Shown here in pieces: positions 311 to 64,000 of a stretch of DNA of 64,000 nt (position 1 is the stretch's first letter; each line of letters begins with the position of its first letter). Source of the DNA: Tubulanus polymorphus (taxonomy: Eukaryota > Nemertea > Palaeonemertea > Tubulaniformes > Tubulanidae). The stretch spans positions 8,349,001 through 8,413,000 of the forward strand of contig NC_134028.1 in NCBI RefSeq assembly GCF_964204645.1, read 5' to 3'. The notes below the pieces were generated by a model that searched no databases, was not told the origin of the DNA, and saw only the letters and a program-made list of their open reading frames with translations. Position numbers and translations under genes: made by a program.

Positions 311-3295
311 GGATTATTCCGTGTGGCTGGTGGTGCTTCTAAAGTGAAGAAACTCAAGGTACAACGAACATTCTTGGATCCGTCATTAATTCATTAATTC
401 ATTAGAACATCTGTCATTAATTCATTTATTGAATTACTGATTTTGGGTTTTAAATTTTGCAGGCTGCTCTCGATGCTGGAGTTGTGGATTTAGACGAGTT
501 TATTAGAGATCCACATGTTGTAGCCGGTAATTATCAATACTTTTTGTTCCATTTGCTTAAAGCCAGTTTTCACGAGTTGTTTCCAACGCTCAACCTATAA
601 TGCAAAATACCTACCTGGAACTGACCGGGGTAGATCTAGCCTAGGTTTTTGAGTACTGCTCAGCCGTGGAAGGGCACCTATATCATCGAAAATTTTGAAT
701 TTTCAGGGGATGCGATCTGAGTCAATTTGGGGCATCAAATCCTTTTCTGCATCCACAAAATATGACAGGTTAAAGAAAAATCATTCATCAAAAATAAGAA
801 GTTTACCCATTTTCGAATATTCAAATTGGCCATTTTAAATTACCTCTACCAGAACTTGAAAAATAAGAGGGCACTTCTATAATCGTGAGGTTGGATCTGC
901 CCCTGCAGACATGTGAAACATACATTACATCTTTTATATTCACACTAGAGACTGGAATAAAGTTTCATAGGCCAAGATGAAATAAATGTGTAGCATTGTG
1001 AACAAATTAACAAAAGCTGGACAAAAAATGAACATAAACAGAAAGAATTCCGCAGGAAATAAAAGCTATGGCATAATTGCTAGGCAAAGAATTGCAGGGG
1101 TAGAAACATGTTTTTGAAAGTTACAATTGTTTCAGCTGTATCGAGTAATTGCTTCCCCTTGATTGAAAGAAGACTCATGAAATTGTGCGTTGTTGATATT
1201 TGAATATGATTCCCTTTGCTGTGTCTGGAAATTAGTTGTGAAAATCCTTGATACTCATTCGCCAAAGAAACCAAACCAGGATCCAGTTGCTCAAAAGGTG
1301 GTTAAATATAACCAGCAGATGAATACGATAGTAATAATGTCACTATGTCAGCTATCCACTGGTTAACTCTTGAGCAACCGGCCCCCGTACATCAACTATC
1401 CACTGGTAAACTCTCAACTTACGAGTAACTGTGACCCCTGTCTTCTATTGACAAAAAAAAATGTCATCATTTTAGGTGCTCTTAAATTATATTTCCGCGA
1501 GCTTCCCGAACCATTGATGACGTACTCGTTGTACAGCGAATGGATGCAAGCTGCTAAACTGTAAGTTGTACAAACGGCCGATACGTAATGCGCTGTGGCG
1601 AAATCTCTTTTCTTTATCATTCAAACGATGAAAAATGCACACAACGGTTTAATTGCAGGCCAAACGATCAGAGATTACAAGCGCTGTGGACTGTTGCTGA
1701 TCAATTGCCGAAATATAACTATAATAATCTCAGGTGAGTTGTCTAACTACTCAGTACCACTAAAGCAGGATGACTCATTACTATTCACATTAAGTCGGTC
1801 ATCTGCTTGTCTTGTTTGATATTTTATAGTTAATATGTGCTACACCCCTCACTACTTGGTTCTTATCAAGTGTCATTTTGTAAGTTGTTCCCTGTGAAGA
1901 ACTATGAAGGAATAGAAGCTCAGTTTCATTAATCATTTTTAACCGGCTGAGTGTCGTTGTATGCTGGGTGGGGAACTAGTGCTCGCTTTAGCTTCGGATC
2001 ATTCTCATTGCGGGATGCAATAAAGGTAGTACATGTAAGGTTAACTGTCTTGTGGTTCTGGATGGATCGAGTGCTAGTTCATCAAACAGCCTACAGCAAC
2101 AACACTCGGCCTGTCACATCTTATTCCAATTCATATGATGATGACCAATTTGGTTCTGCAAGATCTGAGGCTAGTGGAGTGTCCTGTATATTGAATATAC
2201 AAGACACTCCATTTGCCTTGGATATATACAGGACATTTCACTTGCCTCAGATCTTGTTGGACCAAATGGGTCATCATCATATGAATTGGAATAGGAAAAT
2301 TACAAATATCTTTAACTGGGGCACTGGATGATTCGAGGCAATCGGCTAGCAGAGATTACTGTAGTAATACAATACTGATGAAAAGTTGTTCTGTGAAACA
2401 AGCTTGCGGACCTTTGTTATAAAATTCAATGCATGTGACGCAGGGAAACATAGAAACAGGGGACAGAGTCATGTTTCCAAGCATTCACAAGAAACATTGC
2501 TTCAGGAAACAATGTGTCCGAGATCAAACATGTTTGTTGCTGTGTTTCTATGATTCGGTGTTTCCCTCTGTTGTATGCATTAGGCTTAAACTGAACTGTT
2601 TTGGATGAAGACAGTGACTCTTACGAAACTCCTTTATTTCTATTTTTCAGATATCTGATAAAATTTCTTAATAAGCTTGCCGAACATTCAGACACCAATA
2701 AGATGTCGTCTAGTAACATTGCTATTGTGATGGGTCCAAATCTAATCTGGTCCGAAAAAGATGGAGGGTTAGTACATGAATATGTTGATGGTTTTACAGT
2801 GTTTGGTCAATAGTGATTCAGTGTTAAGATACCATGATTACCATGAAATATTCCATTTGCAGCTAAAAAAGATTGATACATTGTATCTCATTTCTGCTGA
2901 GCTTAAAAGTTGAACTGGCCAGCTGCCTATCTACCCTGTATATTAATTTATTGAAAATCATGGTCGAGCTAACCATAACAGATCTGGCATCTTTAGAAAT
3001 GAAGTGATAACAAATTTTATTGCGGTTTCAAATTGACCCGGCCGATTAGGGATTTAGGAGAAACAGGGTATCATTTTTAGCCTGATAATCAATAAATAGT
3101 ACAACAAATCTTTTCCATGTGAACACCTTCGAGAAGTGAGGCCTAATGAGCTGATAACTGTCCTTCGGAAAATAGTCATATTTGAAGGCAACGCTTTATT
3201 TTCTACTAATTGCAGACCAAACATGTTGACGACTGGTACACAAAGTGCCATAATTGATACTTTTATAACTCACGCCGATTGGTTTTTTCCCGGAG
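311..3295 (+). CDS. ARHGAP17/44-like: RICH-like gene: RhoGAP-domain exons
   Basis: Six short exons encode about 156 residues of the RhoGAP fold. The catalytic arginine is the CGT codon at 320-322, in GLFRVAGG. The next exon gives the loop with DLDEFIRDPHVVAG. The exon at 1476 gives the conserved LKLYFRELPEPL helix. The exon at 2651 gives the YLIKFLNKLAEHSDTNKM helix with the GPNLIW strand. The exon at 3216 ends the domain at HADWFFPG. The first 60-70 residues of the domain are upstream of position 311; I found no exon for them in 1-310. Confidence 0.93.
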
Positions 3296-6200
3296 GTAAG
3301 TTCAACATTTCGAGCACCGTCTAAATCACAATTTTGCATGTATTTAAGTATATGCGATAGAAATTACTGATTAGTTTAGATCCAGATAAGTTATTAGTAT
3401 ATTTTATTAGAATCTTTAATTATATTTTAACTTTGATGCTCGATTGATTAAGGTCATTATTCATTAGCTGCAGGATTTCTTGAACGCGATAAATTTAATT
3501 CACTGCGTGCATGATGGTTGGCTGAATTTTATGCTACTGGCTACTACCAGTTACTACTATTCAACAAACATGATTTCGCATTATTTATGCTTTTCTTTAT
3601 AAAGAATAAATGATTGAATTGATTATGGTCCCTGTTCCTTACTCCCGGGGTTGTGTGTATCATCGGTTGATTTGAATTTAAAAAATTGGCCTATCGATTA
3701 TATCAGGGTGAACATCTGTTTACGTAGTTAGTCGACTAGCGGTAGGAGCTAATAAACAGACGTACATAGTTTGGTCTTAACGTATTTCACAGTGTCGGCC
3801 ATTTTGGAAATAGGTCTGAACTACAGCGACTGTGCTCAATCCGATGGTCGACTGTAGTTTCGACAAACTGACATCCGGTTTGCACTTAGTTCGCAGATAG
3901 TCGACTAACTCTGATTGCCAAAATTCGCCCAGGGATCAGTTGCTCAAAAGTTGGTTTAAGATAACCAGAGGATGAATACCATAGTAACAATGAATATGTC
4001 AACTATCCATTGGTTAACTCTAACTTTTGAGCAACTGACCCCAGGCTGTTACACAGAATGACTGATCAAGACTAATGAATCTCTTGATAACGCAGTTATG
4101 AGGAAACTGAAATGAAGAGTCTACTCATCCTGCGAAATGGCCCTCTAGGTCCTGAATGAACTATATACATTCATCAGTAAAACTGTTTATGGTCAGTGGG
4201 TTATATGGCTCTTTCTCATGTTCGTAATTTGTTGATTTCTTAGGCAGGCTGTCCACTTTTTGTACATACGTATATGTGTAATCACTAAATACAGCCTGCT
4301 CATCACCTTGTTAATTCAGTTTATCTCTCGTCTTATTCTTTATCTCTCATTTAATTCCATCGGTTTGATTTGGTTTCTTGTATAAATAAGAGTATATTCA
4401 TCTACAAATCTGTATGTCAATCTACGTATAATGAATCCTGATTAGGTGCCTTCACCTCACGATTGTGATAGACTCCTATTGGTTATGATGTCATGGGCGG
4501 TTGTTTAATGTAGAGGGTTAGTGTTATCGCATCCTCCCGTGCAGGAATTTGAACGGAATCAAGTTATTATTATCGATACCCTTAGTTGACTGCGGGTGCA
4601 TATAGCTATTCTGTGTATCCAGAATAACTATGCTCATAGATATCATAAGATACCTATTGCCGCGATCACACAAGCATTTTTGGCCGGGAACAACTGTTCA
4701 CATTAGTTGCGAAATGTGCCTGTTTGGCGGGGCCAAATTCAGCCCGACTATACAGATTCGGACCAGGTCCGAGCCAAATTTTAGCACGGGACAAATGATT
4801 GCATTTGATATGCAACTGGTTCCAGAAATGACTCATTTTGCTTTGAGTATTTTCTAGTATCGAGTGAGTGGTTTACGTGTGAATGCGCTCTCTTAAATTA
4901 GGCCCGGACCAAATTTGGCTCGAGCCTGATCCAGGCCAAATCATCTACGTGTGAACGCGGCTTATGCTGCACGAATAATATGCATGGAAGGATGGGCTAT
5001 TAGGCTGGCTAGGATTACGATATCATTCACATAACACGAAGTGGCACGCGTACCTGACATGGTTTTCTAAGTGCAGTTCATTGGAAATTATAAACTATAA
5101 GTTCCGTGAATTGCAAAAAAAGTTTGTGAAACTAAAACTGTTCAATACAAATCTGTCTGCTTATGATTTTCGTATGGCTTGGATTAGTTATTATTCTTGT
5201 TTACTTTTATTTGCTTCTCTATGGTTTGCTTCTTTACACTGTAGCAATGATGCATGCTTTTCAATGTGTTCAGATCCTCTTTTTGTTTCGGTTTCGTTCC
5301 TGATCTCGTAACGCGTGAGACACACTCGCTGCACTGGTACTTAATACAATAGAAACTCGATACTAGTCGTATAGATATGCTACTCGATACAGATGACTGG
5401 TCGTATTGAAAATAAAATTGGAATTAAAATTCAATTCCCAATGTTAATGAAAAAAGCTCACGAAAATGTATTCATATGATTCAAACTTTGAAGTTTCCCT
5501 TTCATTCTCCTCTGGTTTCCGAACAAGATGATTCCAATAGAACTCACTTATTTCGTATGACTAGCCTGGTATCGGCCAGATTTCTCCTAATTAAGTAAAA
5601 TTCTAATGATTAATAGTTTACATGGTTCCAGGTAAAATGGACCACATATTTCATCCGAATTGAATGAAATTGAAAAATCCGAATTTAGCGAGTTCTACTG
5701 AAATTTCTGACGATGCTACCATCATCTATACCGACACTATTAGTCAATCTCTGTTTTTATAACGCTGAGAGGCAAGTTGACTATAGGGTTGAATCCAGTT
5801 GAATATAGAGAGAGTTGCTCCATCCCCGAACCGACGGTTGTTGCGCCGGACAGCTCTGATCTCGTTAAAAGTGGAGAGATTGCAGGCATGTGAATCACAC
5901 ATTTTCTCCTCTTCACACCTACACACTCGCTTACACCATACTTACTATGGACCTCCCGACAAGTTAATATCATATTAAGATAAATTCATTAGATAGTTAG
6001 GGTAATCTATTTATTCAGTATTCAAATTCTTGGGACCAAATGCTCAAAAGTTGGATAAAGATAATCGGCCGTTGAATACCATAGTAACAATGGACTTTTA
6101 ATTGTTGCTATGTTAACTCAAATCAACCTTTGAGCAACTGCAGTCCATCTGGGTCCAGTTCCACAGTTCTGAGTTAAGATTTGATTCTGGGTTAACTCAT

Positions 6201-7692
6201 TGAAAATGAACTAACTTTAACTCAGAGTTAACTCTAACTCATGACTGTGGAACTGGATCCAGCTGCATTTTTGGTCAGTTTTGGCAGAAAATGATTTGCT
6301 ACCTATGAACGCTTTTCGTTTCGTGTTCATAAGCGGAGAGAAAAATCATACACATTTCTTTATAAAAAGTTAACAAGTTGCTGCTAGTGTGTAGTAGCTT
6401 CGTCAAGGTAAATGAGTCATTTAGTGATGAAGCTGCTATGCGCTAGCAGCGAAAGCTCGTAATTTCAAATAGAATCAATTAACCTACACAGTACTGCCTG
6501 TTTACAAGTTTAATTTGATACCAGGTCGAAGCGGCTCCTATACTACGACTCCTAACAAAAACTTAATGATTAATTGTATCTTGATATCTATTTTAAAAAA
6601 TTCACGTATTCTGGAAATATATATTTATTGAATCCAATCTTTAATTTATTAAAATCCAGTTTTTTATGCACACGTTTTACGTATAATTGATTTACTGTAT
6701 ATCCGTGCACCAGTTGCTTTTTTCAATTATAAATGGTTTAATTTTTCTAATGATGTCCCTTTTCTTTCTCTCTCTCTCTCTTCTGTTCCCCCGCTGATTT
6801 TATCGGTGTTGTAGCTGTGAAGTTTTCTGTTGTAAAGAGCCAGTCAATGCCCACATTCAGTTCTACACGGTTTCACTCCCCTCCTCGCAAACGCACCAAC
6901 GCCAACAAACAGCAACCATCTCCTAAACCAAAGTGTCGCACTTCGAAATCGAAACAGTCGGCGTCTAATGACGTCGCTTCAAATGTGGGTATTACAGACA
7001 AACAGTCGAACGAAGATCGTCACGGAACGGCCACACCAGTCAACGGGAAAAATGGCACCACGAAAGACGACGACGACATCTCCAGCCCTGAGGATCGCGA
7101 GTCCCTGCGCGATAAACTGCTACACCGTCAGGACTCGCTGCGTAAATGCCGCGAAGAGTTCTACATGAATTCGACGGACGCGTTAGACAATGTGCCGTAC
7201 GCGGCGCCGCGCAAAGACTGGAAGAGCATCTCGCTCGAGCGACGCCAGGACAACCGGATGACGCGGTCGGACTATGGCGCGACGAGCAGCTCGACGTCGG
7301 CGCTGTCATACCCGATGATGCGTGCGGCCAGCCTCGAGAGCGTGACGTCGCCGACGTCGGAGAAGATCGTCTGCAACTGCGACGGCGGGTCGCACAAGGA
7401 CAGCGCGTCGTCGTTCCACACGCCGCCGTTGACGCGTATCGAACGGTCGTTCCCGCGTTACTCCCCGCCCCCACCTCCTCCTATACACCTTCACTCCGAT
7501 ATCTATAACACGGCGTTCGCGCTGCAGTCTCTCGGCGACGGCTGGTCGGACTATTTGAGCAAAGTGCGCAACATCACCGAAGGCCACATGAACAAACGCT
7601 CGTCGTTCGGGGATGGAAGCCAATCGACTAAATCAGGAGGTATGATTCACTCTCTCTCAGTCTCTCCGTGTGTACTTCGATGGCGCATGGCG

Positions 7693-18658: not shown

Positions 18659-19535
18659 TTATTTTTTACGCAGGTCAGCTACGACTACATTTTTGGTGTT
18701 GTTGACTTTCACGTGTGAGCCAGTCTGAAACAAATCGAACATGAATAATTCAGCAATTCATATCAGTTTCCTGGCATTATTCGTTACTGATTTTGTTGCA
18801 GATTTGTCAATATCAGCAGTATCCATTCGTAGGTGCTTGAAAATCACCAAATGCTTTCTTGCAACACCCCAAACAAGGCTCAATGCATTGCTAATTCGAA
18901 GATTTCATTTTAATTAATATACGCCCAATGCATTGCTTACTGGTATTTGCTTTCAATTTTCAAGATTCAAATTGATCGGGTTGATATGGTACACGCGTAT
19001 TGATTATGGTGTGGTATGATTTTCGTTTTACTAGAATCGAATTTTGTGACATCATTGGCGAGATATCATATAACATCCAACAAAATCACACCAGAGGCAT
19101 TTTTTGAGTCCTTCGCTAAACACTTGACTACGCTTATATAGTATTGGCCGGGAATATCCATACCATATAAGCACTTATGGTATAAGCGTATATCATCATA
19201 GTTTTACGATATGACTTATATCTCAGAAAATGTTTTACGGCTATCAGCTTGCAAGAACGAAGCACGTATATCTCCCCTCAGTAAACTTGTATTCAATAAA
19301 ATTTGGACCAATATTAATGCCTAATTTACATATTCATTTGTATGTGTAAGGTATATATGTATAGGCAGATTTAATGAAAATGAAATCCATTCATCTAGCA
19401 TATCACCCAAGGCTGGATCAGGACCTATTTACCTCGAACAGCGCAGGTTCGCTCGGATGCGGATGAAATCCACGTTGGCGACAATTAGCAATGAACTGTA
19501 AACCGTAATCAGGCGTCAGTGAGAAAAATCCAGTT
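18659..19535 (-). CDS. STAMBP: STAMBP: C-terminal exons
   Basis: Exon 19535-19433 encodes [20 protein letters not shown] and [14 protein letters not shown], which includes the Cys and two His of the second zinc site of AMSH-type JAMM domains. Exon 18724-18659 encodes [20 protein letters not shown] and the TAA stop, matching the short C-terminal strand of vertebrate AMSH. Confidence 0.94.
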
Positions 19536-22500
19536 CTACAACAAAGCACAAAAAAATATACATGTTTTCGAAAAACGTAAAGTAAGATTAAAGAAATATT
19601 TTCATACAAGTTAACGTGGATTTAGTGAAATCATCAGTTGAAGAATATCGTAATATTGCACTATTCGGCCAAACAGAAACACCACAGGGCAGATTGCCTT
19701 GGATTATTGCATGGCCAGACCAAAAGGTTTCAAATTTCCAATTCCAATTCATGTGACCACCTCCAATCGTCACTCGACTGCGCCGCACTTTTGCATCCTC
19801 CCTCGGCAGGGATTCGAACCTGATGGCATCGCTAGACTCAGCCACGGCATGAAACCCTACTACCACACTAGCCCGTGAGCGCAGGTACATGCACAGGTAC
19901 ATGCGCAGGTACATGCGCAGGTTTGTCGCTAGTTAGCAGCACAATCAGCTATGAGGAAAGGTCAGTTATACTTACTCATTATATTTAGGTGAGCAGACTA
20001 TCGCTATCGCTTCAGGCATCATTAATTGATAGGAACAGTGAGTATGTAAATCAACGCTGGATAAGAAAGCCGTTTGAGTTGGATGAGTCTGAAATCAATA
20101 TCGATTCACTAATCATAGACACTGAACATAATCATCCATTACGACCTAATATACTTGATAGACGAGGTAGTTGATTATTACGTAATAAATCAGGAGGGCC
20201 ACTTTTATTTGACTTGCTTTTCTCCCCGACTTTCTCCACACTATTCCCTGACATGCACGTGGTATTCTTGACTTGATCCGCTAAGAATCCAGTCAATTAA
20301 CGCAGACAAATACGTATGACATAGATGGAAACTGTTTGATTTCATGCGTGATCTTGCAATCTCAACAAATTTCCCTGACTTTTCCGTAATTCTTAGCATT
20401 TTTTTACAAAATTCCCTGATTATTCCCCGACTTTTTCAAAGAAAAGAACATTCCCAGATTTTCCCCTGATTTCCAGGTAAGTGGCCATCCTGTTAATGTA
20501 CGCTCCCAAAGGAACTGTATGCAGTTGTAGGACTTTATGCGGAGGGATCAATCTGCAGCCTGTGGAACCACCCCGTTTAGATGAAGTTCATAATTGTAGA
20601 GTGGAGACGATCACTTTTTGAAATGGCGTTTGAAGCTAGTTTATTTGTTAGTTTCAGTTCGACAACAATCTAAAATCGCCCTCGCTGAAGGAGCTTTTTT
20701 ACCGCTTCTGAAAACTTACATGAATCCAACCTAATGTAATTAAATCGTGTTGATCTTGATACTCGAACATATCCTCCTCACAATCAGTACTGCATGAATC
20801 CGGCGTTCCGCTCTGATTCGGTATCACCAGATTAGTTATAATAAATGCGTTTTGACTCTAAAATAAGAACAAGAGAACCACTGAATTTAAATCGTGTTGA
20901 TCTTGATACTCGAACATATCCTCCTCACAATCAGTACTGCATGAATCCGGCGTTCTGCTCTGATTTGGTATCACCAGATTAGTTATAATAAATGCGTTTT
21001 GACTCTAAAATAAGGACAAGAGAACCACTGAGTTCACATCTACCTAAGGCTACTCAGGGCATGGGCCCCGCAGACAAGAATAAGCAGAGGGGATTCTTTT
21101 CCGTGATATATTCCTAATCATCAGCCTAAATTGAAGGATGTACGACAAATTTTAATGGCTTTTAGTTTTCTTCGAAATATTTTCAATATTGCAACTACCA
21201 GCAAATTTCAAGCGGAACTTATTTTGAACCATCAACCAAGAAACTCTGCCACCAGTTTTTAACACATTCGTTGCCACCGTATTTCATTTAAGTCATTACT
21301 ATGAGCTAACTCTTAGTTGGCAATAGAGTGAGTACATAGTCGGCCATCGATCGAAATTAACCAATGAGCATTGAGAGCGAAGCAAGAATTTGTCCACATT
21401 GCCAGCCAACCAGGAGATATGTCATTCCAACCAGGAGATATGTCATTGCCAAAGTGTAAATATTCAGTAGGATAAGTTACAAGATAAATCATAGTGGCAA
21501 TGATGGCTTAACTGGAGATGCGAGAAATCTTGCAGTTGGCAGTGAATATGTTAACCCTCTGAATCCCGGATTTACCAGACTACAGGATCCAGTTTCAGTC
21601 ATGAGTTAACTCAGAGTTAACTCTGAGTTAAGATTAGTCCATTTTGAATGAGTTAACTCCGAGTCAAATCTTAACTCACAACTGTGGAACTGGGTCCTGA
21701 CAGATTGGTGGCCTAAATGATTCGGTGCCGAAGAAATAGGCAGCACCGGTGAATGAAACTCACAAGTTTACCGCACAGAATTCCACAAGTTTCTATCGAT
21801 TTCGCGGTGTTCGGTTGAGCGATATTCAGGAACGTGTCCATCAGAATGTCGGGCACGATAACGTCTTTGAAACCGTGTTTATTCAAACTCTTACTGCCCG
21901 TACTGGTAAAATGATCCGGCTTCGACGATCGGTCGATGATTGGAATTTCACTGCGGAAAAACAAAAAAATTCCCGAACGATATTTCATATCAACGAAAAA
22001 TAACTAAAGATCTCATTCATTCGTTGAATAAATAGACACAAGGATTGTTATACCCTTCCCCCTCACAGGGATGGATCCAAGAGGAGGTGCAGGGGGTGCA
22101 CACCCCTCAACTTGCCCTCAGATTTTAAGGGAAAATAGAATATCTTCTAATCAACTATGATATCAACTATAGAATATTTGATAAAAAGTTTTAATTCATG
22201 AGCATATTCTCTACGCTTCCAAAAATGAGCTAATGATCTGGTGCCCTTTTAATTATGATATGTCATAATTTGGGGGTATACCACCCCTCCCTGAATCAGA
22301 TCCTAGATCCGCCCTTGGCTCATGTATGCATTTTCCTTCATAAACGTTAATACGGTATATAATCCAGGGCCCGGTTCTATAGCCTGGTATTATCTTTAAC
22401 TCGGGGGCTAATTCAATTGAAAATGAATTCAGTTAGCCCCCGGGTTAAAGTTAATACCAGGCTATGAAACCCTGGATGTGTAGCAATAGGTACGTAAACT

Positions 22501-24214
22501 GAAAAGATTCATTTACAGGCGTTTAGTTCATGTACATACCCTCCAGGTGGTGCCGATGGACTGACTGGTGGTAACTGGTCGAACGGAGTCGGCGGACCTA
22601 ACTGATTTTTCTGCTGCTCGATTTCTTTCTCTCGTAACAATCTCAACCGTTCCGATTCCTCGAGCAAAATCTGATTCTGATCAAAATACAAAACAAACAG
22701 CATCTTTTATGTATTGATCACGACAGAAAATGTTGAATTGCACGATAATTTTAGCACGGTTGGTTCTAGGCATCTGATCCATCTTTAAACTTTATTACTG
22801 TGTAAACCGATGATACGCTTTGTAAATATTAAGGTGTAATAAAGTAATTTTGAATAAATCTACATATCGATACAGATGCAACTAGTATGGTCAATTTCCT
22901 TTTATCTCAGTTTATTAAAGTTGTTTCAGTTTTATCGCTGAAGAAATTGACACTGACATAACTGAGTATAACTTAGTGAACCAGGCGGAACCTCACAGAA
23001 TCATTGATCACCACAGTATCCTTTACGTTTACTAGCTTTAGTTGATACTAACTTGCTGATGTTTCAATTTTTCTTCTTCCTCTCTTCTTTGTCTCTCTTT
23101 CTCTTCTTGTTTCGCGAGTTCTTCTTTCACCAGTTTCGCTTTATGTTTCTTCTGAAAATGAATGCGAATACGATGAGGAAAATGTATTACGATGATAGGC
23201 CCGGCGTAAATATGACCCCTACCTACCTCTTCTTCTTTTCGTCTGGCTTCTTCTACAGCATATTTTTCTTTAAGTAGCTTCTTAACTTGTTCCGCTTTAG
23301 GAAAAACCACCTCTAATTTCTAGGAATGAATAAAATTGGCTGATATTTCAAATCTATAAATGATGTATCATACATGTAATTATAATGCAATTTCATATCT
23401 TTCTAGGACTTATTGACCCAATTTTATGACCTAATGTTGAAACTTCTACTAACGGTCTGACAAATAGAAATATATCTAGAAAGTCTTAATTTACCGGTAG
23501 TAAGATCAGATATTATCAATTGTGCGCTGTAATGTTATTTCAATGAAATCATATTCAAAAGGAATTAATTAACGTACTTTTTTGTTATTAGCCCGGTCGA
23601 CGGTTTGTGTAGTTCTGTATTCTGGATGTTTTGGTAATTTTTCGACGAATAATCTACAAAGACAAAAATTGTATTATCTCCTTCCGAGTACTCAATCTGG
23701 TTACGGTAAACCCTATTAAAACGATTTTCACTGCACGGATTTTTTTTCAATTTTGTATATACTAGATTTAATTCCAATCAACATGGAATCTGGGCTTGCA
23801 CAAAACAAACCAAAACCGATAAATATGTAAGACATCTTTGAACCCTTTCTACACCTCAGTGCGGTGTATAAAATAGTGATGGACTGCTAGTACGTCGCAA
23901 TGTTGTGTATTTATGCTATTTAGTAATTTATTTTTTATCTCTACTACGTCGACCCCTACAGAGTTAAGATATTGAACATTGTACCGTAATGCTTACGAGA
24001 TGAATTTCGAGTATAAGATAAAAGCACTCTCCAAATTGCCTTCTTCGTAGTAAACGTTGGCCATACGAATCATTTCGAGCCCCGAACGAAAATATCGCCT
24101 CGGCGGAATCGTTGGATCGACGTCGACCTGGCAGCCGTAGTCGCACAACGCGCAAACGCGTTTACCCGGATCGCGAATATCCGGGAATAATCCTTCGGCA
24201 GGAACGCGATTCAT
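18659..24214 (-). CDS. STAMBP: STAM-binding protein / AMSH, JAMM deubiquitinase (complete)
   Basis: Ten coding exons on the minus strand: 24214-23997, 23653-23578, 23319-23227, 23151-23053, 22676-22540, 21950-21764, 20857-20720, 20088-19976, 19535-19433 and 18724-18659. They sum to 1230 nt, encoding 409 aa, against about 424 in human AMSH. Phases join cleanly. Order: N-terminal MIT domain (about 15-105), coiled coil (about 105-190), a STAM SH3-binding motif PIIDRSSKP (211-219), then the JAMM domain with the catalytic Glu of [10 protein letters not shown] (E261), GWIHTHP (H316, H318) and FLSSVD (D329), and the second zinc site around C372 and H378/H380. The enzyme cleaves K63-linked ubiquitin chains on endosomes with ESCRT-0/III. 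Start: first ATG after an acceptor near 24231, so a 5' UTR intron is likely. AMSH-LP is the alternative paralogue name; an invertebrate gene predates that split. Confidence 0.96.
19790..19925 (-). repeat. tRNA-like SINE, copy F1, with tandem tail
   Basis: Read on the minus strand it has an A-box-like TGGCTGAGTCTAG and a B-box GGTTCGAATCC, the signature of a tRNA-derived SINE. The B-box/A-box block recurs at 36755-36870, 52850-52935 and 54570-54640. Next to it at 19883-19920 is a short tandem array of GCAGGTACATGC. Confidence 0.6.
19976..20857 (-). CDS. STAMBP: STAMBP: JAMM zinc-binding exons
   Basis: Exon 20857-20720 (46 codons) ends in TLGWIH with the first zinc histidine. Exon 20088-19976 starts [17 protein letters not shown], giving the second histidine and the aspartate. 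The JAMM motif H-x-H-P-x(6)-S-x-x-D is complete, so the enzyme should be active. The exon junction falls between the two zinc-ligand histidines. Confidence 0.96.
20887..21004 (-). pseudogene. STAMBP: Truncated tandem duplicate of STAMBP JAMM exon 7
   Basis: A 147-bp block (20740-20886) is repeated directly at 20887-21033 with only a few mismatches. The upstream (in gene sense) copy keeps the acceptor and about 39 codons but lacks the last codons and the donor, because the duplication breaks inside the exon after the HDL codons. If its acceptor were used, reading on would reach a stop within about 14 codons, so it is probably skipped or acts as a poison exon. Confidence 0.85.
21263..21550. mobile_element. 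TTAA-flanked MITE (family J)
   Basis: Inverted ends CACATTCGTTGCCA and TGGCAGTGAATATG, with TTAA immediately outside both ends. It contains a direct 21-bp duplication at about 21411-21455. A related end lies at 46600-46715. TTAA targets suggest a piggyBac-mobilised element. Confidence 0.55.
21583..21699. repeat. Family B MITE, copy 4
   Basis: GGATCCAGTTTCAGTC to CTGTGGAACTGGGTCC with the GAGTTAACTC palindrome core; in a STAMBP intron. Confidence 0.8.
21764..21950 (-). CDS. STAMBP: STAMBP: SH3-ligand and catalytic-Glu exon
   Basis: Encodes [12 protein letters not shown], which fits the PX(V/I)(D/N)RXXKP motif that binds STAM SH3 domains, then the first JAMM strand and helix ([20 protein letters not shown]) and [12 protein letters not shown] with the catalytic glutamate. 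The donor is GTGAGT directly after the KL codons. Confidence 0.95.
22363..22476. repeat. Family C MITE, copy 1
   Basis: Almost perfect 114-bp palindrome. Ends are TCCAGGGCCCGGTT and its near complement, the interior has CCTGGTATTATCTTTAAC, and the centre is AATTGAAAATGAATT. Six copies in the window (22363, 28394, 38391, 38639, 48270, 57602). Confidence 0.85.
22540..23319 (-). CDS. STAMBP: STAMBP: charged coiled-coil exons
   Basis: Exons 23319-23227 (31 codons), 23151-23053 (33 codons) and 22676-22540 encode Lys/Glu/Arg/Gln-rich helices beginning [17 protein letters not shown], followed by a Pro-rich segment ending PSAPPGG. The first two exons are whole numbers of codons. At the third, two nearby acceptors (AG at 22677-22678 or 22671-22672) would include or drop Asn-Gln. 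Confidence 0.92.
23578..24214 (-). CDS. STAMBP: STAMBP: MIT-domain exons
   Basis: Exons 24214-23997 and 23653-23578 encode the start of the protein and most of the MIT domain. [35 protein letters not shown] is interrupted by the exon junction inside a serine codon, then continues as [13 protein letters not shown]. The PPRRYFRSG and GN-E-AFILY motifs are almost identical to vertebrate AMSH. In that family the MIT domain docks on CHMP (ESCRT-III) tails. Confidence 0.95.
23840..23945. repeat. Family E MITE, copy 4 (5' fragment)
   Basis: Starts GAACCCTTTCTACACC with the GTGCGGTGTATAAAAT and GATGGACTGCTAGTACG blocks; truncated 30-50 bp before the first STAMBP coding exon. Confidence 0.6.
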
Positions 24215-28393: not shown

Positions 28394-28505
28394 CTGGGCC
28401 CAGTTTTATAGAATGCGATTAACTTAAACCCGCGGGCTAACTCAATTAAAAATGAACTGAGTTAGCCCTGGGTTCAAGTTGATACCAGTCTATAAAACTG
28501 GGCCT
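28394..28505. repeat. Family C MITE, copy 2
   Basis: GGGCCCAGTTTTATAG at the left and CTATAAAACTGGGCC at the right; 55 bp before a family A copy. Confidence 0.85.
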
Positions 28506-30878: not shown

Positions 30879-31039
30879 CTAGGAACGGAAAAATTCCATT
30901 TTAAATTCGAATAGATTTGACAAAGACGATAAAGAGCCGCTTGCGAATGGTGCAGATATGTAGTAAATATGGTTCTATGATGCATACACGCTTGCTACTG
31001 CTCCCAGCTCCCTTTGCTGAGTGTATTCTTCAGCTCGTG

Positions 31040-31368
31040 TGCGTTTATGAGAAACAACAAACTCGCTTGTTTTCTTTGTTTCCCTGCGTCGGTTCGATTT
31101 ACAAGAAACATGTTTGACCGTTGAAACGCGGAAACATGCTTGTTTCCGTGTGTCTCTTTGTCATGCGTGTTTACGAGAAACAGGAAAGCTTGTTTCCTTG
31201 TTTCCCTGCATCCGGTGCATTTACGAGAAACATGTTTTATTGTTGAACAAGAGAAACAGGCTTGTTTCCGTGTGTCCCTTTGTCATGTGCGTTTATGAGA
31301 AACAAGAAACAGGCTTGTTTCTGTGTGTCCCTGTATTGGTTGCATTTACAGGAAACATGTTCGATTCC
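31040..31368. repeat. Family I tandem array (period about 122-127 bp)
   Basis: About two and a half copies of a unit containing GCTTGTTTCCGTGTGTC, CATTTACGAGAAACATGTTT and related inverted motifs. Equivalent points lie at 31063 and 31190, and at 31139 and 31261. Each unit can form hairpins because AAACATG and CATGTTT alternate. Confidence 0.75.
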
Positions 31369-61816: not shown

Positions 61817-62061
<245 letters not shown>

Positions 62062-63172: not shown

Positions 63173-64000
63173 GCTGTAAACTTGCAGATTACACAAGGAA
63201 ACTTGGAGGTAAACGAGACTGTAAAATCAGCAATAGACAAAGAAATCCAAGATGTTCGATGTGAAATTTGGGAGACGGAAATCAGACGAAATAATATACT
63301 GATATATGGCTTACAGGAAGCAAGCGAGGAACAGGTGAAATTAAGGCGTAAAAAAGAGTGGCAAAATCTCTATGGATTTATCACCCAGGGCTTAGGTTTA
63401 ACAGATCTTCATAAACCTAAATTAGTGAACCGTGTAGGACGGTATGAGCAAAATAAATGTCGCCCACTTCGGGTAATACTAGCTACAGAACTCGATAAAG
63501 AATTGATCATAAACAGATTTATCGAATTAAGGAGAAATGGAGATCCATCTATTACAGGGGTATCTGTATCCAGCGATAGAACTATGAACCAAAGAAAACA
63601 CTATCAGAAATTAAGGGAAGAGCTGCAGGAAAGAACAAAAAATGGAGAACGAGGTCTTATCATTCGTGGGAATGATATAGTCAGTAGATTACCGCCGGCA
63701 TTTCGTCAAGCAAACCAAAACCAACCATAAGGACAATCAACCAGACAAATCACTGTCAAAAAAATTTTTAAGAAAAAATGATCAAAATCTGAAAAGTAAC
63801 CAATCAATGTTAAAAAGTAATTGCAAATCGAATCAACAAAAACCAGGAAATTATGATAGGAGCCAATCATCAACTGAAATTACGAGAAAGAATCACGAAA
63901 GATCCAAATTACATAAGAATCAACAAAATAGATCAGCGAAAAAGAAATTATTAGTACCAAAACAATCACTCGATAATAATCGCAATAATCAACTGTCAAT
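63173..64000 (+). mobile_element. LINE (non-LTR) retrotransposon, ORF1-like region, runs off the window
   Basis: The frame from 63173 (first in-frame codon after a stop) to TAA at 63728-63730 encodes a protein with the ORF1-type signature RRNNILIYGLQEASEE, then LVNRVGR, CRPLRVILATELDKELIINR and SSDRTMNQRKHYQKLREELQ. This RRM-like domain is typical of LINE ORF1 or of the region ahead of the endonuclease in invertebrate LINEs. It has no ATG near its start, so the copy is probably 5'-truncated. The next frame (+1) is open from about 63681 to the window end and encodes a Lys/Asn/Gln-rich basic tail, as expected for nucleic-acid binding, so a single-base frameshift near 63700 is likely. Confidence 0.8.

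Follow-up and report, generated by a model that had tools for sequence, protein, structure and literature searches.

A small tandem duplication over an intron–exon border of the AMSH/STAMBP gene in Tubulanus polymorphus

Intron gain through tandem duplication of coding sequence that carries a splice signal has reportedly been described in one study, where decay of the mis-spliced RNA may shelter the new state. In Drosophila, tandem duplication is presented as a route to new introns that needs a duplicated AG/GY site (PMC2891723, PMC2809761). Internal tandem repeats over exon–intron boundaries alter the exon/intron structure of human duplicated genes, and such boundary repeats are enriched in recent and copy-number-variable regions (PMC2812944). 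In the ATM gene of a patient, a 382-bp intronic tandem duplication is predicted to yield an out-of-frame pseudoexon and RNA decay (PMC10371869). Of the in-frame transcripts catalogued for human variants that create splice sites, 20.87% contained premature stops, most notably those with extended or cryptic exons (PMC11718197). Here we describe a 147-bp duplication over the border of an intron and a catalytic-domain exon in the AMSH gene of a nemertean; our literature search found no report of such a duplication in this gene, which does not prove that none exists.

The AMSH gene and its duplicated exon border

The window analysed is a 64-kb stretch of a 27.4-Mb contig (C4) of the Tubulanus polymorphus genome, and the gene that carries the duplication lies on its minus strand. 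Its coding exons were joined by splice borders and homology into a model that covers the coding part only, from the start codon. The 10 coding exons are all open and encode 409 amino acids and a stop, and the nine introns between them are all GT-AG with compatible phases. The features used below are as follows.

23997..24214, minus strand: coding exon 1, with the start codon at 24214; USP8_dimer region
23578..23653, minus strand: coding exon 2
23227..23319, minus strand: coding exon 3
23053..23151, minus strand: coding exon 4
22540..22676, minus strand: coding exon 5
21764..21950, minus strand: coding exon 6, start of the JAMM domain, donor gtgagt
20858..21763, minus strand: intron between coding exons 6 and 7, 906 nt via the true acceptor and 759 nt via the upstream acceptor
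20882..21028, minus strand: upstream (extra) copy, carrying the final 24 nt of the intron, whose acceptor AG is at 21006-21005, then 39 codons and the junction, without a donor
20735..20881, minus strand: downstream copy (in transcript sense), with 24 nt of intron end, the acceptor and the first 39 codons, common to both copies
20720..20857, minus strand: true coding exon 7, 46 codons (aa 271-316) ending GWIH, acceptor ttttag, donor gtaagt
19976..20088, minus strand: coding exon 8, rest of the zinc site
19433..19535, minus strand: coding exon 9
18659..18724, minus strand: coding exon 10, containing the stop codon

The protein has a USP8_dimer domain (PF08969, E 1.3e-23, aa 18-119) followed by a JAB domain (PF01398, E 7.8e-21, aa 235-342). 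In the PDB it is closest to human AMSH (3rzv, E 2e-71; 3rzu, E 2.3e-69) and AMSH-LP (2znr, E 1.8e-67), human AMSH ranking first, ahead of the AMSH-like sst2 chains. By the JAMM pattern of Glu, His-x-His and Asp, and with residues counted on the model, E261 falls in exon 6, H316 is the last codon of exon 7, and exon 8 supplies the other His (H318) as well as Asp D329. Exon 7 holds only the first zinc-ligand His, H316. Human AMSH chain 3rzu is identical over the JAMM stretches of exon 6 and the exon 8 region, and the best-scoring chain, 3rzv, has Ala at the position of the Glu. On its domains and JAMM residues, the gene is assigned to the AMSH/STAMBP JAMM deubiquitinases, with putative cleavage of K63-linked ubiquitin.

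The two 147-bp copies lie head to tail and are identical at 142 of 147 positions (97%); TRF calls the pair at 20740-21031 with a period of 147, 2.0 copies and 97%. The duplicated unit is made up of the final ~24 nt of the exon 6–7 intron with its acceptor, followed by 39 of the 46 exon 7 codons. Five positions differ between the copies (20737/20884, 20739/20886, 20809/20956, 20819/20966 and 20868/21015), and the first two of these fall at the junction, which leaves three differences in the 142 positions of 20740-20881, a core divergence of 2.1% (Poisson 95% interval 0.4-6.2%). At the protein level, the 39 shared codons show one Gly-to-Arg difference, with Arg in the upstream copy. This is the sole pair in the window with a period of 60-1500 and at least 93% identity. 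Under the same thresholds, dinucleotide shuffling yielded no tandem pair, either from the window (six shuffles) or from 20 stretches sampled from the genome and shuffled once each, where the best identities were 56% and 57%, respectively; as the shuffles gave no comparable pair, a chance origin is excluded.

These results bear out most of the first-pass annotation, which had named the gene as AMSH (both domains and the best PDB match agree) and had described a direct 147-bp repeat with few mismatches and a recent origin, the latter in keeping with so few core differences. Its wording that the duplication cuts through the catalytic exon does not hold, because exon 7 (20857-20720) is complete with acceptor and donor.

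Other repeats were noted in the window. The intron that holds the duplication has a second short tandem repeat at 21405-21452 (21 bp, 2.2 copies), and the intron between exons 5 and 6 contains a foldback element at 22373-22471, with two 46-nt arms that are 87% complementary and a 7-nt loop; by eye, a stretch near 28395-28500 resembles it, so that it is perhaps a repeated miniature element. Further off lie a minisatellite at 31038-31361 (period 122, 2.6 copies, 80% matches), a perfect TA run of 119.5 units at 61819-62057 and, on the plus strand at 63173-63730, a 185-aa open frame that by eye is like a LINE ORF1 fragment and had no Pfam match.

Splice signals and the predicted extended exon

The copies differ in what follows the 39 codons. 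The downstream copy goes on with LITLGWIH and then the donor gtaagt. In the upstream copy the final seven codons of exon 7 are missing and there is no donor at its end; after ...QDQHDL it runs through the copied intron end to the TAG of the downstream acceptor. Residue 287 is Gly in the downstream copy, Ala in human AMSH and AMSH-LP and Arg in the upstream copy, and Gly287 together with the donor marks the downstream copy as the functional exon. We infer that it is the exon normally used, as no other copy reaches the donor, giving a 138-nt coding exon, or holds the full coding sequence. Because the event is young (3/142 differences), an intact coding frame is no proof of a working gene.

In the upstream copy, the first exon base after the acceptor is 21004, and the last exon base at the preceding donor is 21764. 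Branch points, donors and acceptors were scored with simple generic matrices, not trained on the T. polymorphus genome. On this scale the true acceptor scores 8.99 and the upstream acceptor 8.21, and the other acceptors of the gene range from -0.34 to 9.7. Both stand out among the 47 AGs scored between 21740 and 20851, themselves included, the next best being 2.9, for an AG two bases inside the true exon 7, and 2.43. Nine GTs were scored as donors in the upstream copy, GC donors lying outside the scoring; the best (20928, 5.53) shifts the frame, and the next (20974, 4.95) would add 10 codons in frame. The weakest real donors of the gene score 4.41 and 4.68 on the same matrix. The duplicated acceptor, which is followed by AGTC, lacks an AG/GT proto-splice site, the adjacent donor scoring -1.84. 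A TTCAG/CTCAG match resembling a branch point lies at -25 in both copies by the simple matrix. Loss of the branch point from the downstream copy, where the junction falls ~25-30 nt before the true acceptor, was considered, and no such claim is made since this match is kept in both.

If the upstream acceptor were used, exon 7 would be extended as follows.

20720..21004, minus strand: hypothetical extended exon of 285 nt, with TAG at nt 145-147 (20860-20858)

As 147 is 3 x 49, the 285-nt exon would keep the reading frame of exon 7; its sole stop is the TAG of the downstream acceptor. This stop lies 138 nt before the next junction, and further junctions follow. Nonsense-mediated decay is expected where a stop lies more than ~50 nt before the last junction (PMC11718197); at 138 nt, decay of the extended RNA is therefore predicted. 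The putative RNA also has the stop position used to define alternative splicing coupled to such decay (AS-NMD), again more than ~50 nt before the last junction.

The first-pass annotation had placed the acceptor at 21004 and the preceding donor at 21764, with 39 of 46 codons shared, and had read the upstream copy as having a good acceptor, no donor and a run into a stop; the coordinates and codon count are correct, and the acceptor score and TAG position confirm the reading. The label of poison exon that it offered is strictly inapplicable. A poison exon has its own acceptor, its own donor and an internal stop, and the upstream copy, which has no donor of its own, amounts to an alternative 3' splice site that extends the exon by 147 nt; as an exon extension it could act like one. 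Nor is the pair a set of mutually exclusive tandem exons, for which each copy needs an acceptor, a donor and a frame, as the upstream copy does not have all of these.

Origin of the duplication and rival explanations

A search of the whole genome (267.8 Mb, 77 contigs) with the AMSH protein placed all 11 listed matches at this locus, where the extra exon copy appears as a separate match. In a tblastn search on a subset of genome loci, matches outside the AMSH locus were weak, the best having E 2.4e-05 and 37% identity. To judge by the whole-genome protein search, and at its sensitivity, AMSH is single-copy. A genome search with Pfam JAB gave 10 matches with the AMSH exons not among them, probably owing to the split of the domain over three exons, and it was left out of the AMSH gene count. 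The duplicated 147-bp DNA was itself found at one place in the genome by a search that skips very common words. With the DNA at one place and the listed AMSH matches all at one locus, no mobile source or paralogue was found; origins from a mobile element, and from a second AMSH gene or an unplaced haplotype, were rejected on these respective grounds.

The new junction, where exon-side CGATTTAA runs into intron-side TCAGTGG, reads CGATTTAAATTCAGTGG; inspected by eye, the two sides share two bases at most, with one base added and one changed. Such a form is what end joining or slippage would be expected to leave. At two of the three core differences, a CG in the downstream copy corresponds to a CA in the upstream one. 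Decay of the latter driven by methylation was considered and dropped, because the observed/expected CpG ratio is 1.02 in the gene and 1.51 in the coding sequence, with no depletion. The length of DNA in a nucleosome is 147 bp, and we regard the match in length as a coincidence.

Small duplications are present elsewhere in this genome. We sampled 20 evenly spaced 10-kb stretches from two contigs (200 kb in total) and kept tandem repeats with a period of 60-1500 and at least 93% identity, after dropping low-complexity rows and rows overlapping a shorter period. Repeats passed this filter in 4/20 stretches; when the copies were read, three proved to be simple two-copy duplications of 72, 116 and 128 bp, with 94.5-97.4% identity, and the remainder arrays built from shorter units. 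If the stretches are typical, there is about one simple duplication per 70 kb, a figure that comes from three cases on two contigs only. One sampled stretch (C4:11000001-11010000) carries, at 1052-7150, the 72-bp two-copy duplication (97%) together with arrays that read as 32- and 54-bp units.

We consider it likely that the locus records a recent duplication that is neutral or slightly costly, and perhaps segregating, with the upstream copy serving as a decoy acceptor that is probably used at a low rate and whose products decay. A local 147-bp tandem duplication, made by end joining or replication slippage with a slightly altered junction left behind, would have taken in the 3' end of the intron together with the opening 39 codons of the exon that follows, in a single-copy, otherwise intact AMSH gene. 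The upstream copy would then be an intron remnant with a decoy acceptor; where this acceptor was used, the 285-nt exon with its stop would send the RNA to nonsense-mediated decay, and the net effect would be none, or a modest loss of usable mRNA. Against a silent outcome, the upstream acceptor is predicted to be nearly as strong as the true one (8.21 versus 8.99) and is the first one met, so that it may be used frequently; frequent use would leave the gene badly impaired, and 'silent' would be wrong.

An artefact of assembly, in which two haplotypes or a collapsed or slipped repeat were laid in tandem and the genome has one copy, is unlikely. The three core differences could be allelic; however, the assembly is long, with a contig of 27.4 Mb, the copies meet at a new, altered junction and not in a clean overlap, a misplaced haplotype would be expected to exceed 147 bp, and neither the DNA search nor the listed protein matches revealed a further copy of the locus in the assembly. 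Slightly less likely again is regulated unproductive splicing, in which selection would keep the upstream acceptor to lower the AMSH level through decay of the extended RNA. Such regulation would fit the strong second acceptor, a length divisible by three, and a stop that the acceptor itself supplies 138 nt ahead of the next junction, but the event is young, the genome sample holds other such duplications and one length in three is divisible by three anyway.

An early step of intron or exon gain, with a weak donor in the upstream copy spliced to the downstream acceptor, seems very improbable to us. The GTs at 20974 and 20928 score within the range of the weakest real donors of the gene, yet the true exon contains copies of these GTs too, the better-scoring one shifts the frame and the duplicated acceptor has no AG/GT proto-splice site. 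We give the least credence to escape of the extended RNA from decay. A truncated AMSH with the N-terminal half, part of the JAMM domain and an incomplete zinc site would then compete for STAM/ESCRT partners, as the USP8_dimer region and linker precede the stop and would be retained; the 50-nt rule predicts decay instead, and a broken JAMM fold would probably be unstable.

Significance and relation to known systems

The duplication is an ordinary small mutation, most likely with no effect or a little wasted RNA, and it is possibly polymorphic in the species. If the decoy acceptor is used, the locus would be a natural experiment in the competition of almost identical 3' splice sites that lie 147 nt apart and have near-same exon sequence behind them, and would reveal how an endosomal deubiquitinase gene present in a single copy copes with an event of this sort; failing that, it is one routine case among the small tandem duplications present elsewhere in the genome. 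It is quite improbable that the upstream acceptor is used substantially and sets the AMSH dose, or yields a catalytically dead fragment that binds partners. If either were true, control of endosomal deubiquitination through splicing would have been seen at its birth, still segregating within a species.

Compared with intron gain by duplication of coding sequence, the AMSH gene has the acceptor of an existing intron duplicated, with neither proto-site nor donor, so that no new intron follows directly; the duplicated AG/GY site of the Drosophila route (PMC2891723, PMC2809761) is likewise absent. With the human boundary repeats it has in common a tandem repeat spanning an exon–intron border, whereas those are mostly minisatellites in multi-copy genes with RNA support and the AMSH case is one two-copy duplication in a single-copy gene, known from sequence alone (PMC2812944). 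The ATM case shares a small intragenic tandem duplication with predicted mis-splicing and decay, and differs in that its pseudoexon is out of frame, while an in-frame exon extension with a stop is predicted for AMSH (PMC10371869). As with the splice-site-creating variants (PMC11718197), a new upstream acceptor would lengthen the exon; those variants were catalogued from human transcriptomes, and the AMSH extension is a prediction. The AMSH duplication belongs with these known cases and adds no new kind to them.
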